Assembly: GCA_004143945.1 (NCBI GenBank)
Contig: SEHB01000012.1
Span: 62,001 to 126,000, forward strand
Length of the DNA: 64,000 bases
Direction of reading: 5' to 3'
DNA from: Lysobacteraceae bacterium
Lineage (GTDB): Bacteria > Pseudomonadota > Gammaproteobacteria > Xanthomonadales > Rhodanobacteraceae
Part shown: positions 13,609 through 36,682 of the stretch, one piece after another
Layout of the letters: the number at the start of each line of letters is the position of its first letter
Position numbering within the stretch: the stretch's first letter is position 1
Program-made: the position numbers and the translations under genes
Notes under the pieces: generated by a model
What the model saw: only the letters and a program-made list of their open reading frames with translations
The model's database searches: none
Told to the model about the DNA's origin: nothing

Positions 13609-14007
13609 ATGCAAGAGATTCCCGGCGACCTGAAGTTCCTGAAATCCCATGAGTGGGCGCGCGTCGAGGACAAGGGCACGGTGACCGTCGGCATTTCCGA
13701 CCACGCGCAAGGCCTGCTCGGCGATCTGGTCTACGTCGAGTTGCCGAGCGTCGGCGACACGGTCAAGGCCGGCAACGCGTGCGCGGTGGTGGAGTCGGTC
13801 AAGGCCGCCTCCGATGTGTACGCGCCGGTGTCCGGCGAGATCGTCGCGATCAACGAGGCGCTGCCGGACAAGCCGGAGACGATCAACGAGGACGCATACG
13901 GCGATGGCTGGCTGTTCGTGATCAAGCCGGACAATCTCGCCGAGGACCAGGACGAGCTGCTGGACCCGGACGCGTACGCCGAACTGATCGAGAACGACGA
14001 ACACTGA
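13609..14007 (+). CDS. gcvH: Glycine cleavage system H protein
   Basis: A 132-residue lipoyl carrier that shuttles the aminomethyl intermediate between the P, T and L proteins. The lipoylation site is K65 in [10 protein letters not shown], within the sandwich-barrel fold that spans nearly the whole protein. The length and the [10 protein letters not shown] and W-L-F-V-I-K-P motifs are standard. ATG 13609 has GAGGA eight bases upstream. Expression together with gcvT is likely. A strong hairpin follows at 14016-14040. Confidence 0.97.
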
Positions 14008-14015
14008 GCGCCAGC

Positions 14016-14040
14016 GCAGCCGTGCTGCCTGCACGGCTGC
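14016..14040 (+). terminator. Hairpin after gcvH
   Basis: GCAGCCGTGC (14016-14025) and GCACGGCTGC (14031-14040) form a perfect 10-bp stem with a five-base loop, starting nine bases after the gcvH stop. No T-run follows, so termination may be incomplete or the hairpin may stabilise the 3' end. Confidence 0.6.
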
Positions 14041-14555
14041 ATCCCTCGCCGCGACGTCCGTCTGCGGCGACATCTTCGACTTCCCCTGCGAAAAGCCGCC
14101 TCGTCGCGATCATCGCGAGGGCGGCGCGTGCCGCATCGGTTCGCGCGCGCGTTCATTCGAACCTGTTCGCATGCGCATCCGAGGCACGTGCTCGCGCGTC
14201 GATCGCGACATCGGCGAACGCGTCCTGCGATGCGTGATCGCCGCATTCGACTGCTCGGACGACACCTTCGCGCGCGCTTCGCCGATGCCGGTGAAGTGCC
14301 GCGCGGGATCCGCCGGGATCGCGTTCGACGCGCGCGAAGCGCATCCGGCGCGTCCGCGGCGAAGGTCGCGTTCATCCCCCGGACAGCCGCCCCGCGCGTC
14401 GCCGGGGTGGTCTTGCGCAACGTGCGTGCGCAGTTGCTCCACTGCGTCGATCACGGCGCGCGCACGCACGCGCATGGCTGCGCGCAATCACGCGAATCGC
14501 ATCCTGCTGCAGGGAATACCGCATGTTTTGCGCCCAATGGACGCCAGATTGTTGC
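14041..14555. other. Long stretch without a recognisable gene between gcvH and metJ
   Basis: Several open frames cross this region on both strands, but none has a family signature, ribosome-binding site or believable composition; they are Arg/Ala-rich as expected of GC-rich noncoding DNA. Only the met boxes and the promoter downstream of it are recognisable. A long 5' leader or a decayed gene are the alternatives. Confidence 0.5.
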
Positions 14556-14587
14556 GGACGCCCAGACGTATGGACGTCCATACGAAA
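14556..14587. promoter_or_regulatory. Tandem met boxes (MetJ operator) upstream of metJ
   Basis: Four adjoining 8-mers, GGACGCCC, AGACGTAT, GGACGTCC and ATACGAAA, compare with the MetJ box AGACGTCT at 5, 7, 6 and 4 of 8 positions. The central part is also the 16-bp palindrome GTATGGACGTCCATAC. Tandem 8-bp boxes are how MetJ dimers bind side by side. The array lies about 95 bp upstream of the visible metJ promoter, so it would act at a distance or on a promoter I cannot see. Confidence 0.6.
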
Positions 14588-14679
14588 CGACAGTGCGGAG
14601 GTGCGCGCGGGGTCGCCGGGGTGCTCGCGGAGGCGTTTCGGAGGGGTGCGGGAACTGCTTGTTTAGCCTAAGAAATTTG

Positions 14680-14708
14680 TTGACACGCGCGCTTGACAGT
14701 AATAGTTT
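14680..14708 (+). promoter_or_regulatory. Sigma-70 promoter of the metJ-H1 gene
   Basis: TTGACA (14680-14685, perfect -35) is followed after 17 bases by TAGTTT (14703-14708, weak -10). A second TTGACA at 14693 has no partner. Transcription would start near 14715, about 25 bases before ATG 14741. The local sequence is clearly more AT-rich than its surroundings. Confidence 0.6.
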
Positions 14709-14740
14709 CTGCGCCGGCGTGACGAATTGACAAAGGAATC

Positions 14741-15193
14741 ATGACGGCAACACGCTTCATCGATCCCTACATCGAACACGGTACGAAGGCCGGCTCGGTG
14801 AAGAAGATCACGGTGTCGGTCCCGTTCCACGTACTGAAGCTTCTGTCCGACGAACGGACCCGCCGCCAGGTCGGCAACTTGCGCCACGCCACCAACAGCG
14901 ACTTGCTGTGCGAAGCATTCCTTCACGCTTTTACTGGGCAACCACTGCCAACTGACGAGGAGCTAAGACGCGATATGGCCATGAAGAAAGCAGCTGCAAA
15001 GCGGAAACCCGCCAAGAAGGCCGCCGCCAAGAAGTCGGCGAAGAAGACCACCGCCCGCAAGACCACCGCACGGGCCAAGACCGCAACCGCCCGCAAGACC
15101 GGCGCTGCGAAGAAGCCGGCGGCCAAGAAGAGGGCCGTGAAGAAGGCGGCCAAGAAGGCCACCGTGAAGAAGGCCGCAAAGAAGGCCAAGTAA
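14741..15193 (+). CDS. metJ: MetJ methionine repressor fused to a histone-H1-like Lys/Ala tail
   Basis: Residues 1-78 are a MetJ ribbon-helix-helix repressor. K-K-I-T-V-S-V (21-27) is the DNA-reading beta strand, and [22 protein letters not shown] and F-T-G-Q-P-L-P follow as in E. coli MetJ. The last helix of classical MetJ (about 25 residues) is missing. In its place residues 79-150 are an almost pure Lys/Ala/Thr/Arg tail with K-K-A-A-A-K and A-K-K repeats, like bacterial H1-type proteins (HctB/AlgP type). The product should repress methionine genes with S-adenosylmethionine as corepressor; the tail probably adds non-specific DNA binding. AAGGA precedes ATG 14741. Met boxes lie upstream, and matching boxes precede metX at 34209. 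GAGGAG (14957-14962) ahead of Met79 could also allow a separate 72-residue H1-like protein. Confidence 0.93.
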
Positions 15194-15201
15194 TCACGAC
15201 T

Positions 15202-15232
15202 CGGGCCGGCCACCACGAGGTGGCCCGGTCCA
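15202..15232 (+). terminator. Hairpin terminator after the metJ-H1 gene
   Basis: GGCCACC and GGTGGCC form a perfect 7-bp stem around ACGA, with partial pairing extending outward, nine bases after the stop codon. There is no T-run. Confidence 0.55.
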
Positions 15233-15461
15233 GCTGACGGCCCGCGCCTTCGTGGCCGGGCCGATCAGCAAACGCGACATCGCATCACCGCATCACCGCG
15301 ACACGAAAGCAAAAGCTTCATTCGGAAACCGAATTACTCTCCCTGCGGATACGCCCAGCGCAGGGAGAGGATTTCCCCTCCGCTCCCGCGACACTCCCTC
15401 CGCTTGCCCCCGCCCCTCTGCACCATCGAGCCGCTCGCCGGCGGCTGCGCGGCGCGCGCGA

Positions 15462-34208: not shown

Positions 34209-34232
34209 GGACGTATAGACGTCTAAACGGCC
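34209..34232. promoter_or_regulatory. Tandem met boxes (MetJ operator) of the metX operon
   Basis: Three adjoining 8-mers read GGACGTAT, AGACGTCT and AAACGGCC. The middle one is a perfect MetJ box; the outer ones match 6 and 5 of 8 positions. The array abuts the -35 hexamer at 34234, so bound repressor would hinder RNA polymerase. It shares its box pattern with the array upstream of metJ-H1. Confidence 0.75.
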
Positions 34233-34233
34233 A

Positions 34234-34262
34234 TTGACGGCTGGAGCCGGCGCGGCTAGAGT
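34234..34262 (+). promoter_or_regulatory. Sigma-70 promoter of the metX operon
   Basis: TTGACG (34234-34239) and TAGAGT (34257-34262) are separated by 17 bases and match the consensus at 5 and 4 of 6 positions. Transcription would start near 34269, a few bases before the first strand of the SAM riboswitch. Confidence 0.72.
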
Positions 34263-34272
34263 GCGCTCCTCG

Positions 34273-34383
34273 CCCATCGAGACCGGCTGAGGGACAGGCC
34301 CTTTGACGCCGGGGCAACCAGCGGATCCGTCCGCAAGGTGCCAAATCCCGCGGGGATCGCGTTGCGATCCGCCGAGAGATGGG
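34273..34383 (+). promoter_or_regulatory. SAM-I (S-box) riboswitch aptamer
   Basis: The closing helix is CCCATC (34273-34278) with GATGGG (34378-34383). Between them the conserved core is seen in order: GAGGGACAGGCCC, then TGACGCCGGGGCAACC, AAGGTGCCAAATCC and GAGAGATGGG, with a variable hairpin GGGATCGCGTTGCGATCC in the P4 position. This is the S-box order and spacing. It should bind S-adenosylmethionine and lower expression of metX-metB-hom when it is plentiful. Confidence 0.92.
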
Positions 34384-34424
34384 TTGCAGCACCGTCGCGC
34401 CCGCAGGGCGCGCCGCGCGCAGCA

Positions 34425-34470: not shown

Positions 34471-35496
34471 ATGTCGGCACTGTTCGAACCTTGCGATGCG
34501 CCCGCGCCTGCGGGCGCGCCCCTGGCCACGCGTGCATGCACGGTCGCGCGAGGCGCGCAGTCGATCACCCTGCGTCCGTGGCATGCCGCGTCCGCGTGCA
34601 GCGTGCGCCTGCGCTGGAGCCTGCACGGACCGGCGTCGGCGCCGTGGGTGATCGTGCAGGGTGGCATCTCGGCCGATCGCGAAGTCGCCGCCGATGCGGG
34701 TGCCGGCGCGACCGGCTGGTGGAGCGGGATCGTCGGACCCGGCCTCGCGATCGACACCCGGCGCGTGCGCGTGCTGGCCGTCGACTGGCTCGAGCGCGCG
34801 GACCTCGCGGATGCGCGCGCGATCGACAGCCGCGACCAGGCGAACGCGATCGCGGCACTGCTCGACGCGTTCGAGGTGCGATGCGTGCGCGCATTCGTCG
34901 GTGCCTCCTACGGCGCGATGGTCGGCCTCGCGCTCGCGGCGCTGCATCCGCGCCGGCTTGCACGCCTCGTCGCGATTTCGGGTGCGCATCGCGCGCATCC
35001 GTTGAGCACCGCGCTGCGCAACCTGCAGCGGGACATCGTGCGGCTCGCGACCGCCGCGGGCGATGCGCGCGCGGGCCTGGACCTCGCACGGCGTCTCGCG
35101 ATGACGACCTATCGCAGCGAACGCGAATTCGCCGAGCGCTGCGGCGGCGAGCCTGCGTTCTGCGGCGGACGCTACCGCTTCGCCGGGGAGGACTGGCTCG
35201 CCGCGGCCGGCGCGCGTTTCGCCGAACGCTTCGATCCGGATCGATTCCTGTCGCTGTCCGAGTCGATCGACCTGCATCGCGTCGAGCCGGGCGACGTGCG
35301 CGTGCCGACGACGCTGGTCGGCATCCCGTCCGACCGGGTCGTGCCGTTGGCGGACCTGTGCGAACTGCAGCGCGGATGCGGCGCTCCCGCGACGCTGCAC
35401 GTGCTCGATTCGCGCTACGGGCACGACGCGTTCCTCAAGGAACCGCTCGCGATCGGAAACCTGCTGCGTGAAATCCTCGAACCGACCGGAGCCTGA
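34471..35496 (+). CDS. metX: Homoserine O-acyltransferase (MetX family, probably O-succinyl)
   Basis: A 341-residue alpha/beta hydrolase-fold acyltransferase. It activates the hydroxyl of homoserine in the first committed step of methionine synthesis. The triad is S146 in G-A-S-Y-G-A-M, D288 in I-P-S-D-R-V and H318 in Y-G-H-D-A-F, and the oxyanion region is I-V-Q-G-G-I-S. MetX enzymes of this order are reported to use succinyl-CoA rather than acetyl-CoA, which sequence alone cannot settle here. ATG 34471 has GAGGAG five bases upstream. Expression should fall with high S-adenosylmethionine through both met boxes and the riboswitch. metB follows at once. Confidence 0.92.
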   Translation: MSALFEPCDAPAPAGAPLATRACTVARGAQSITLRPWHAASACSVRLRWSLHGPASAPWVIVQGGISADREVAADAGAGATGWWSGIVGPGLAIDTRRVRVLAVDWLERADLADARAIDSRDQANAIAALLDAFEVRCVRAFVGASYGAMVGLALAALHPRRLARLVAISGAHRAHPLSTALRNLQRDIVRLATAAGDARAGLDLARRLAMTTYRSEREFAERCGGEPAFCGGRYRFAGEDWLAAAGARFAERFDPDRFLSLSESIDLHRVEPGDVRVPTTLVGIPSDRVVPLADLCELQRGCGAPATLHVLDSRYGHDAFLKEPLAIGNLLREILEPTGA

Positions 35497-35497
35497 C

Positions 35498-36682
35498 ATG
35501 AACCGAACTCCCACCACCGCCGCCGTGCGCGCGGGCATCGAAAGCGACAGCCAGCACGGCGCCGTCGTGCCGCCGCTGCACCTCAGCACGAACTTCACGT
35601 TCGAGGGACTCGGTCGGCGCCGTCGCCACGATTACACGCGCAGCGGCAACCCGACGCGCGACCTGCTCGGCGAGGCGCTCGCGGAACTCGAGCATGGGGC
35701 GACTGGCATCGTCACAGCGAGCGGCATGGCGGCCGTCGCGCTGGTGCTGCAGCTCGTGCCCGAGGGCGGACTCGTGCTGGCCGCGCACGACTGCTACGGC
35801 GGCACCTGGCGCCTGCTCGATGCATGGGCGCGCAAGGGACGCCTGCGCGTCGAGTTCGTCGATCTCACCGACGCCTCGGTGGCCGCCGCAGCGCTGCGGC
35901 GCGCGCCTTCGCTCGTGTGGATCGAAACGCCGTCCAATCCGCTGCTGCGCATCAGCGACATCTCAGCGCTGGCGCAGGCGGCGCGCGCGGCGGGCGCGCT
36001 GTGCGTCGTCGACAACACGTTCCTGTCGCCGGCGCTGCAACGCCCGCTCGAGCTCGGTGCCGACGTCGTCGTGCACTCGACCACCAAGTACATCAACGGC
36101 CACGGTGACGTCGTCGGCGGAGCGGTGGTCGCGCGCGAAGCGGCCGTCGGCGCCGAGCTCGCCTGGTGGGCGAACTGCATCGGCCTCGCAGGCGCGCCGT
36201 TCGACAGCTACATGACACTGCGCGGACTGCGCACGCTCGCGGCGCGCATGCGCGTGCACGAAGACAATGCGGCCGGCGTCGCGGCCCTGCTCGCCGCGCA
36301 TCCGTCCGTCGCGCGCGTCTACTGGCCCGGCCTCGCGACGCATCGCGGGCATGCGCTCGCCACGCGCCAGCAGGCCGGCTACGGCGCGATGCTCGCGTTC
36401 GAACTCGCGGGCGGCCACGCGGCGATCGCGGCGTTCCTCGACGGCCTGCGCTACTTCTCGCTGGCCGAGTCGCTCGGCGGCGTCGAAAGCCTCGTCGCGC
36501 ATCCGGCGACGATGACGCACGCGTCGATGGCGCCGGAAGCTCGGCGCGCCGCGGGCATCGGCGACGGCCTGCTGCGCCTGTCGGTCGGCATCGAGGCCGC
36601 GGGCGACCTCTGCACCGACCTCGCCGCCGCGCTCTCGCGTGCGCAAGCGGTCGCGCCGGTGCCGTGCGGGGCCGCCGCGTGA
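35498..36682 (+). CDS. metB: Cystathionine gamma-synthase (Cys/Met PLP enzyme)
   Basis: A 394-residue PLP enzyme of the Cys/Met metabolism family. It joins the acylated homoserine with cysteine to give cystathionine; O-acylhomoserine sulfhydrylase is an alternative. The PLP lysine is in S-T-T-K-Y-I-N-G-H near residue 200, the tyrosine/arginine pair in Y-T-R-S-G-N-P-T-R near 46, and the C-terminal E-S-L-G-G-V-E-S-L substrate segment is intact. GGAG lies before ATG 35498, two bases after the metX stop. Its stop overlaps the GTG start of hom, so metX-metB-hom is one operon. Confidence 0.93.
   Translation: MNRTPTTAAVRAGIESDSQHGAVVPPLHLSTNFTFEGLGRRRRHDYTRSGNPTRDLLGEALAELEHGATGIVTASGMAAVALVLQLVPEGGLVLAAHDCYGGTWRLLDAWARKGRLRVEFVDLTDASVAAAALRRAPSLVWIETPSNPLLRISDISALAQAARAAGALCVVDNTFLSPALQRPLELGADVVVHSTTKYINGHGDVVGGAVVAREAAVGAELAWWANCIGLAGAPFDSYMTLRGLRTLAARMRVHEDNAAGVAALLAAHPSVARVYWPGLATHRGHALATRQQAGYGAMLAFELAGGHAAIAAFLDGLRYFSLAESLGGVESLVAHPATMTHASMAPEARRAAGIGDGLLRLSVGIEAAGDLCTDLAAALSRAQAVAPVPCGAAA

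Follow-up and report, generated by a model that had tools for sequence, protein, structure and literature searches.

MetJ is the textbook repressor that shuts off methionine production. How SAM activates it is disputed, one account invoking positive charge and the other the damping of motions that link loop 1 and helix C (PMC2775130; papers cited by PMC number are quoted throughout from excerpts of their text). A 2014 regulon study described MetJ in six gammaproteobacterial groups and SamR in Xanthomonadales (PMC4239095). Among proteins with histone H1-like tails, HupB needs its tail for nucleoid association (PMC5676037), and the lysine repeats of actinobacterial TopA confer processivity (PMC7398561). 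Such tails are already known on AlgP, PhaF, HupB and TopA, and what is new in the present study is an H1-like tail on a textbook repressor. We found no description of a Lys/Ala tail on MetJ, or of double SAM control, in the searchable literature, which leaves most subscription papers outside, and the excerpts of a 2011 MetJ study (PMC3228920) contain no word beginning xanthomonad, extension or tail.

The MetJ core, its tail and their distribution

The window, the whole 64,000-nucleotide stretch of Rhodanobacteraceae DNA analysed here, carries metJ downstream of gcvT and gcvH; most of the named Rhodanobacteraceae metJ loci examined likewise have a gcvH motif upstream of metJ on its strand. The features at metJ are as follows.

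14564..14579, + strand: tandem met boxes upstream of metJ (3 mismatches to AGACGTCTAGACGTCT); boxes also present in most relatives
14680..14708, + strand: likely metJ promoter, TTGACA-N17-TAGTTT, conserved in the alignment
14741..15193, + strand: entire metJ reading frame including the Lys/Ala tail (150 aa and stop codon)
14741..14965, + strand: MetJ core, codons 1-75 (ending ...LPTDEEL), from PF01340 and the alignment with 1cma
14966..15190, + strand: Lys/Ala-rich tail, 75 residues, 33 K+R, 1 acidic

The frame runs from ATG to TAA through 150 codons with no internal stop, and its product scores 130.8 bits against PF01340 (cut-off 25) and 135.3 bits against NCBIfam NF003622 (cut-off 110). Because it passes the latter model, databases probably already name such proteins MetJ. 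The window protein matches the E. coli chain of 1cma from residue 5 to residue 80 (6-81 in E. coli) and no further, and in this alignment the E. coli ribbon and SAM-site residues (K23, T25, R42 and 59-67) are identical in the window protein. An earlier note, made from the letters of this DNA, had assigned residues 1-78 to MetJ; the core is indeed intact, and its end is refined to about residue 77-80. The in-frame fusion that the note described is confirmed, since there is a single 150-codon frame, both MetJ models are passed and the same architecture recurs in 92 of 92 distinct family proteins that reach a stop codon. We conclude from the sequence that the window metJ is most likely the working methionine repressor of Rhodanobacteraceae.

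Of the 75 residues that follow DEEL in the window, 26 are K, 7 are R, 25 are A and a single one is D, giving a charge of about +32 per chain, and in this composition the likeness to H1 and AlgP pointed out in the earlier note holds. The regular tandem KPAA repeats by which AlgP and PhaF are recognized were not found in the window tail, in which KPAA occurs once only and the remainder consists of irregular KKAAK-type units. With hmmscan, the H1-like models PF07382, NF038052 and NF038053 gave 25.3 (cut-off 40), 18.4 (135) and 17.5 (80) bits, respectively, and in a six-frame search the same stretch scored 39.8 against the HC2 model, or 40.3 counting neighbours (cut-off 40). Judged by its composition, the tail resembles HC2 and other H1-like proteins; HC2 membership was not assigned, as two scores lie under the cut-off and one at it, in a match based on composition. 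In an AlphaFold model of the tailed MetJ, built from 15 sequences, the mean pLDDT was 50.5. The same genome encodes a topoisomerase I (L157) that likewise ends in a Lys/Ala-rich tail, and further small H1-like Lys/Ala-rich reading frames (L155, L158 and L159).

MetJ was found in 227 of 233 Rhodanobacteraceae genomes (family f1) and in 26 of 26 genera, and the six genomes without a match are 79-93% complete. We examined 116 metJ loci of this family, 105 of which reached a stop codon and yielded 92 distinct proteins; the other 11 end at a contig edge (L114 after 188 residues, the remaining ten after 77-100) and stand outside the 92, and L119, read open only from mid-core, contributes its tail to the 92 and stays outside the tree with its core. 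All 92 distinct complete proteins carry a Lys/Ala tail, which extends 37-312 residues beyond DEEL (median 97.5) and has a net charge of +17 to +104. Past the first four residues, the pooled tails (8,709 residues) contain 4 D, 1 H, and no E, aromatic residue or Cys. An assembly error, missed stop or frameshift at residues 78-81 is ruled out by the tail in 92 of 92 distinct complete proteins. The tailed MetJ is the rule in Rhodanobacteraceae, neither an artefact nor unique, and the idea that the fusion is an oddity of one sequence has to be given up.

Beyond this family, an order-level draw returned MetJ in 116 of 298 genomes, f1 among them, and outside f1 only in families f9 and f11. The 16 MetJ proteins of f9 and f11 that were read are tail-less and, at 79-96 aa, not long enough to include the C-terminal helix region. 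The region of E. coli type is absent from the window MetJ as well. The earlier note was right that the normal C-terminal helix is missing, the region being replaced by the tail, but the absence is not peculiar to the fusion, since tail-less MetJ of two other families shares it. Helix loss is for this reason best read from the sequences as a matter separate from tail gain, and the tail as a substitute for the lost helix is ruled out by the two helix-less families without a tail. Because tail-less members without the helix region pass PF01340, this region is no defining MetJ trait. A class-wide draw gave MetJ in 5 of 370 genomes. The MetJ of genome G729 covers the Pfam model to its end. In the order to which this genome belongs, MetJ occurs in 210 of 247 genomes, and of the matches listed for that order, the ten with the longest open frames all lack a Lys/Ala tail; their C-terminal region is normal in ten of ten, and the surplus length lies upstream (L204 having a SENEKA repeat as well). 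In L204 (genome G976, of another order than the window), MetJ with a normal C-terminal region is followed by the SENEKA repeats and no cationic tail. The bare-core MetJ of 79-96 aa, from which the C-terminal helix region is missing, is encoded at loci L056-L060 and L032-L042 in the two other families of the window's order.

In a tree of MetJ cores (109 rows, 71 columns), with many forks unresolved and a bootstrap not yet entirely stable, a branch supported at 96/92 separates the 78 tailed rows from all the others, which fits a single gain of the tail. Twelve close pairs with equal tail length, which have members in common, gave a pooled pN/pS of 0.18 for the tail and 0.12 for the core, with two pairs reaching tail ratios of 0.50 and 0.76, and the tail substitutions in close pairs fell chiefly within A, T, V, S and K/R. 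The low pN/pS and this pattern of substitution argue that the tail is translated and constrained, its make-up being held rather than its sequence. As far as these comparisons go, the sequence and length of the tail are free and its composition is kept.

Operators, promoters and the SAM-I riboswitch

The putative targets of the repressor lie at the met operon, which stands in the same window, and at metJ itself. The met operon comprises the following features.

34209..34232, + strand: met-box array before the met operon, two of its boxes clear and the third weak
34234..34262, + strand: likely met operon promoter, TTGACG-N17-TAGAGT, with TTGAC at the matching place in 51/51 loci
34271..34385, + strand: SAM-I riboswitch, RF00162, 76.1 bits (gathering score 44.4)
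34471..35496, + strand: metX-like alpha/beta hydrolase, PF00561 (searched from 34414); start inferred from the open reading frame, acyltransferase role likewise inferred
35498..36682, + strand: metB-like Cys/Met metabolism PLP enzyme, PF01053
36682..37761, + strand: homoserine dehydrogenase, PF00742 and PF03447; start not settled

The operator at 34209 to which the earlier note had pointed proved real, a met-box pair situated beside the -35 of the operon for the metX-like enzyme, the metB-like enzyme and homoserine dehydrogenase. Three met-box pair matches were obtained in 0 of 100 shuffles of the window, and genome-wide the pattern gave four matches per strand (three in the window, one on another contig) and the control two. 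The SAM riboswitch directly downstream of the operator was missing from the earlier note. SAM-I riboswitches were found in 113 of 117 f1 genomes and in 26 of 26 genera, and 51 upstream regions were compared, namely those of the best 30 of the 113 riboswitch genomes (one re-anchored), 20 for the remaining genera, and the window. In all 51, representing 26 genera, the riboswitch is preceded at a distance of 49-63 bases by a met-box pair with at most four mismatches, and TTGAC lies -1 to 9 bases after the met-box 16-mer; where the gap between 16-mer and TTGAC is longer, a third box fills it in the examples displayed. On every criterion of sequence that we tested, the tailed MetJ is a met repressor. 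Because the met operon is preceded both by a SAM-I riboswitch and by an operator for MetJ, one operon appears to face two SAM sensors in series. In 62 of the 71 genomes with metJ and the met operon on one contig the two are at most 110 kb apart, and in 34 more genomes they are on different contigs.

Upstream of metJ, TTGAC[AG] stands at the likely promoter in 98 of 99 distinct Rhodanobacteraceae upstream regions (two loci whose upstream sequence is too short are outside this survey). A consensus promoter scan of positions 14000-15300 returned no promoter-like site, and the metJ -10 is weak; the metJ promoter is thus assigned because of conservation only. Met boxes with at most five mismatches precede metJ in 86 of the 99 distinct regions, as against 2 of 99 shuffles, and a looser met-box pattern gave fewer forward matches than its control (25 vs 30). 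In the window the boxes start 116 bp upstream of the -35, and an unanchored search placed their start at 112-116 in 54 of the 86 regions, at 120-131 in 25 and at other values in 7; the jumps of about 8 and 16 in this distance suggest arrays of more than two boxes. When the search was biased to 109-117 bases before the -35, 65 of the 86 had a pair with at most five mismatches and 12 had no fitting pair (at least nine). Within the region 14564-14703 of the window, the spacer between the boxes and the -35 is not conserved in sequence, and a shared RNA structure from operator to metJ promoter was unsupported, as the folds of 24 loci differ and the mean z is -1.6, calculated against single-base shuffles in which dinucleotides are not kept. 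The 13 regions without a good met box, which retain the tail, include the named Luteibacter loci examined and some from Dyella and Rhodanobacter; in three loci of genus g16, probably Luteibacter, the operator is present at the met operon.

Proposed mechanism and its alternatives

The reading that we favor, with a probability of roughly 0.5, is that of a met-box repressor whose tails add non-specific DNA contact and whose target operon has a riboswitch as its second SAM layer. SAM-bound MetJ dimers on the tandem met boxes beside the met operon -35 would exclude RNA polymerase, and the SAM-I riboswitch in the leader would act on those transcripts that escape, such that SAM would work twice. The tails, presumably disordered, would touch flanking or passing DNA regardless of its sequence, and these contacts could prolong residence and aid in finding and holding a few operators in a GC-rich genome. 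Because only charge and composition would matter under this proposal, tail length and order could drift freely. The loss of the helix would be a separate event for which the tail gives no replacement. The non-specific affinity for DNA that the earlier note attributed to the tail is likely, on composition and on analogy with HupB and actinobacterial TopA only, with the similar tail of the genome's own topoisomerase I in its favor, and its further suggestions of bridging, condensation or coupling to the nucleoid state found no direct support. MetJ protein has been detected by proteomics in strain R12, in a study with Rhodanobacter (PMC12146267), and we infer that R12 is the Rhodanobacter of that study. 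Counted against a role for the tail are that tail-less MetJ elsewhere works on met boxes without one, and that the tail is kept where metJ itself lacks a good met box, in 13 of 99 regions. In addition, point mutations adding positive charge to E. coli MetJ did not replace SAM (PMC2775130), so that specific binding may gain little from charge by itself.

It is also conceivable, though unlikely, that the tails bridge or condense DNA, making MetJ a sequence-addressed nucleoid protein that, once anchored on met boxes, pulls in nearby DNA, for example the metJ promoter about 100 bp from its own operator. The HC2-like and H1-like composition of the tail would suit such a role, as would the remote metJ boxes, at 116 bp in the window and 112-116 bp in 54 of 86 loci, with most of the remaining distances off by roughly one or two box lengths. 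However, a second promoter near the remote metJ operator is possible, and at the met operon the boxes adjoin the -35 in 51 of 51 loci, where occlusion suffices; the position of the 34209 operator beside the -35 fits plain occlusion of RNA polymerase, with condensation unneeded. More doubtful still is the fullest form of this idea, in which a metabolite-specific repressor became, once, a sequence-addressed nucleoid protein, SAM setting the anchor, the tails gathering neighbouring DNA, the remote operator about 100 bp upstream acting on the metJ promoter, and methionine control thereby being tied to the state of the nucleoid.

We regard as rather improbable, by analogy with AlgP, that the tail binds another polyanion, either polyphosphate or an RNA such as the nascent riboswitch leader, which would tie methionine control to starvation or to RNA. 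AlgP, with its KPAA tail, sits on polyphosphate granules, whose even spacing depends on the AlgP C-terminus (PMC9239181), and in 51 of 51 loci no more than about 65 bases separate the met operator from a structured leader RNA, but the AlgP repeats are regular KPAA and the window tail is irregular. Equally improbable in our estimation is a tail of little function, a low-complexity sequence that slippage creates and resizes and that is tolerated at an unimportant C-terminus. The range of lengths from 37 to 312 residues and the tandem repeats present in the tail DNA are what slippage would leave, and the unrelated SENEKA repeat at the end of the L204 MetJ, in another order, could be a parallel case. 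Slippage of this kind is difficult to reconcile with 0 losses among 92 distinct proteins, with tails almost free of acidic residues and devoid of aromatic ones, and with the pooled tail pN/pS of 0.18.

Significance and comparison with known systems

Both views of SAM activation could be tested directly on a repressor that naturally lacks helix C and bears tens of extra positive charges per chain. Helix C is also lacking from the bare-core MetJ of f9 and f11, although the models of SAM allostery assign it a part (PMC2775130). The tail is in addition an example of a low-complexity sequence kept by composition alone throughout a bacterial family, MetJ is extended beyond the groups of the regulon study (PMC4239095), and two sensors of SAM, one a protein and the other an RNA, are placed on the same promoter in 26 genera.

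E. coli MetJ (PF01340, NF003622; 1cma, 1mj2) aligns with the window protein without gaps over 76 residues of the core, shares residues 59-67, which lie near the sulphur of SAM (PMC2775130), and likewise has met-box operators; the window protein differs from it in having a cationic tail in place of the C-terminal helix region. Pseudomonas AlgP and PhaF resemble the tailed MetJ in joining a folded or helical N-terminal part to a long Lys/Ala-rich C-terminal region (PMC9239181), but differ in their N-terminal domains, in their regular KPAA repeats and in their role in positioning granules. Mycobacterial HupB and actinobacterial topoisomerase I also combine a DNA-acting protein with an H1-like or lysine-repeat tail (PMC5676037, PMC7398561). 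They are, however, a nucleoid protein and an enzyme, not operator-specific repressors under metabolite control. Xanthomonas campestris belongs to the same order as the window bacterium. Its met operon too has a SAM-I-like leader in the 5'UTR (PMC6230763). In the excerpts of that study the strain is said to lack metJ and the promoter does not mediate the response (PMC6230763), whereas the promoter in the window bears a MetJ operator.
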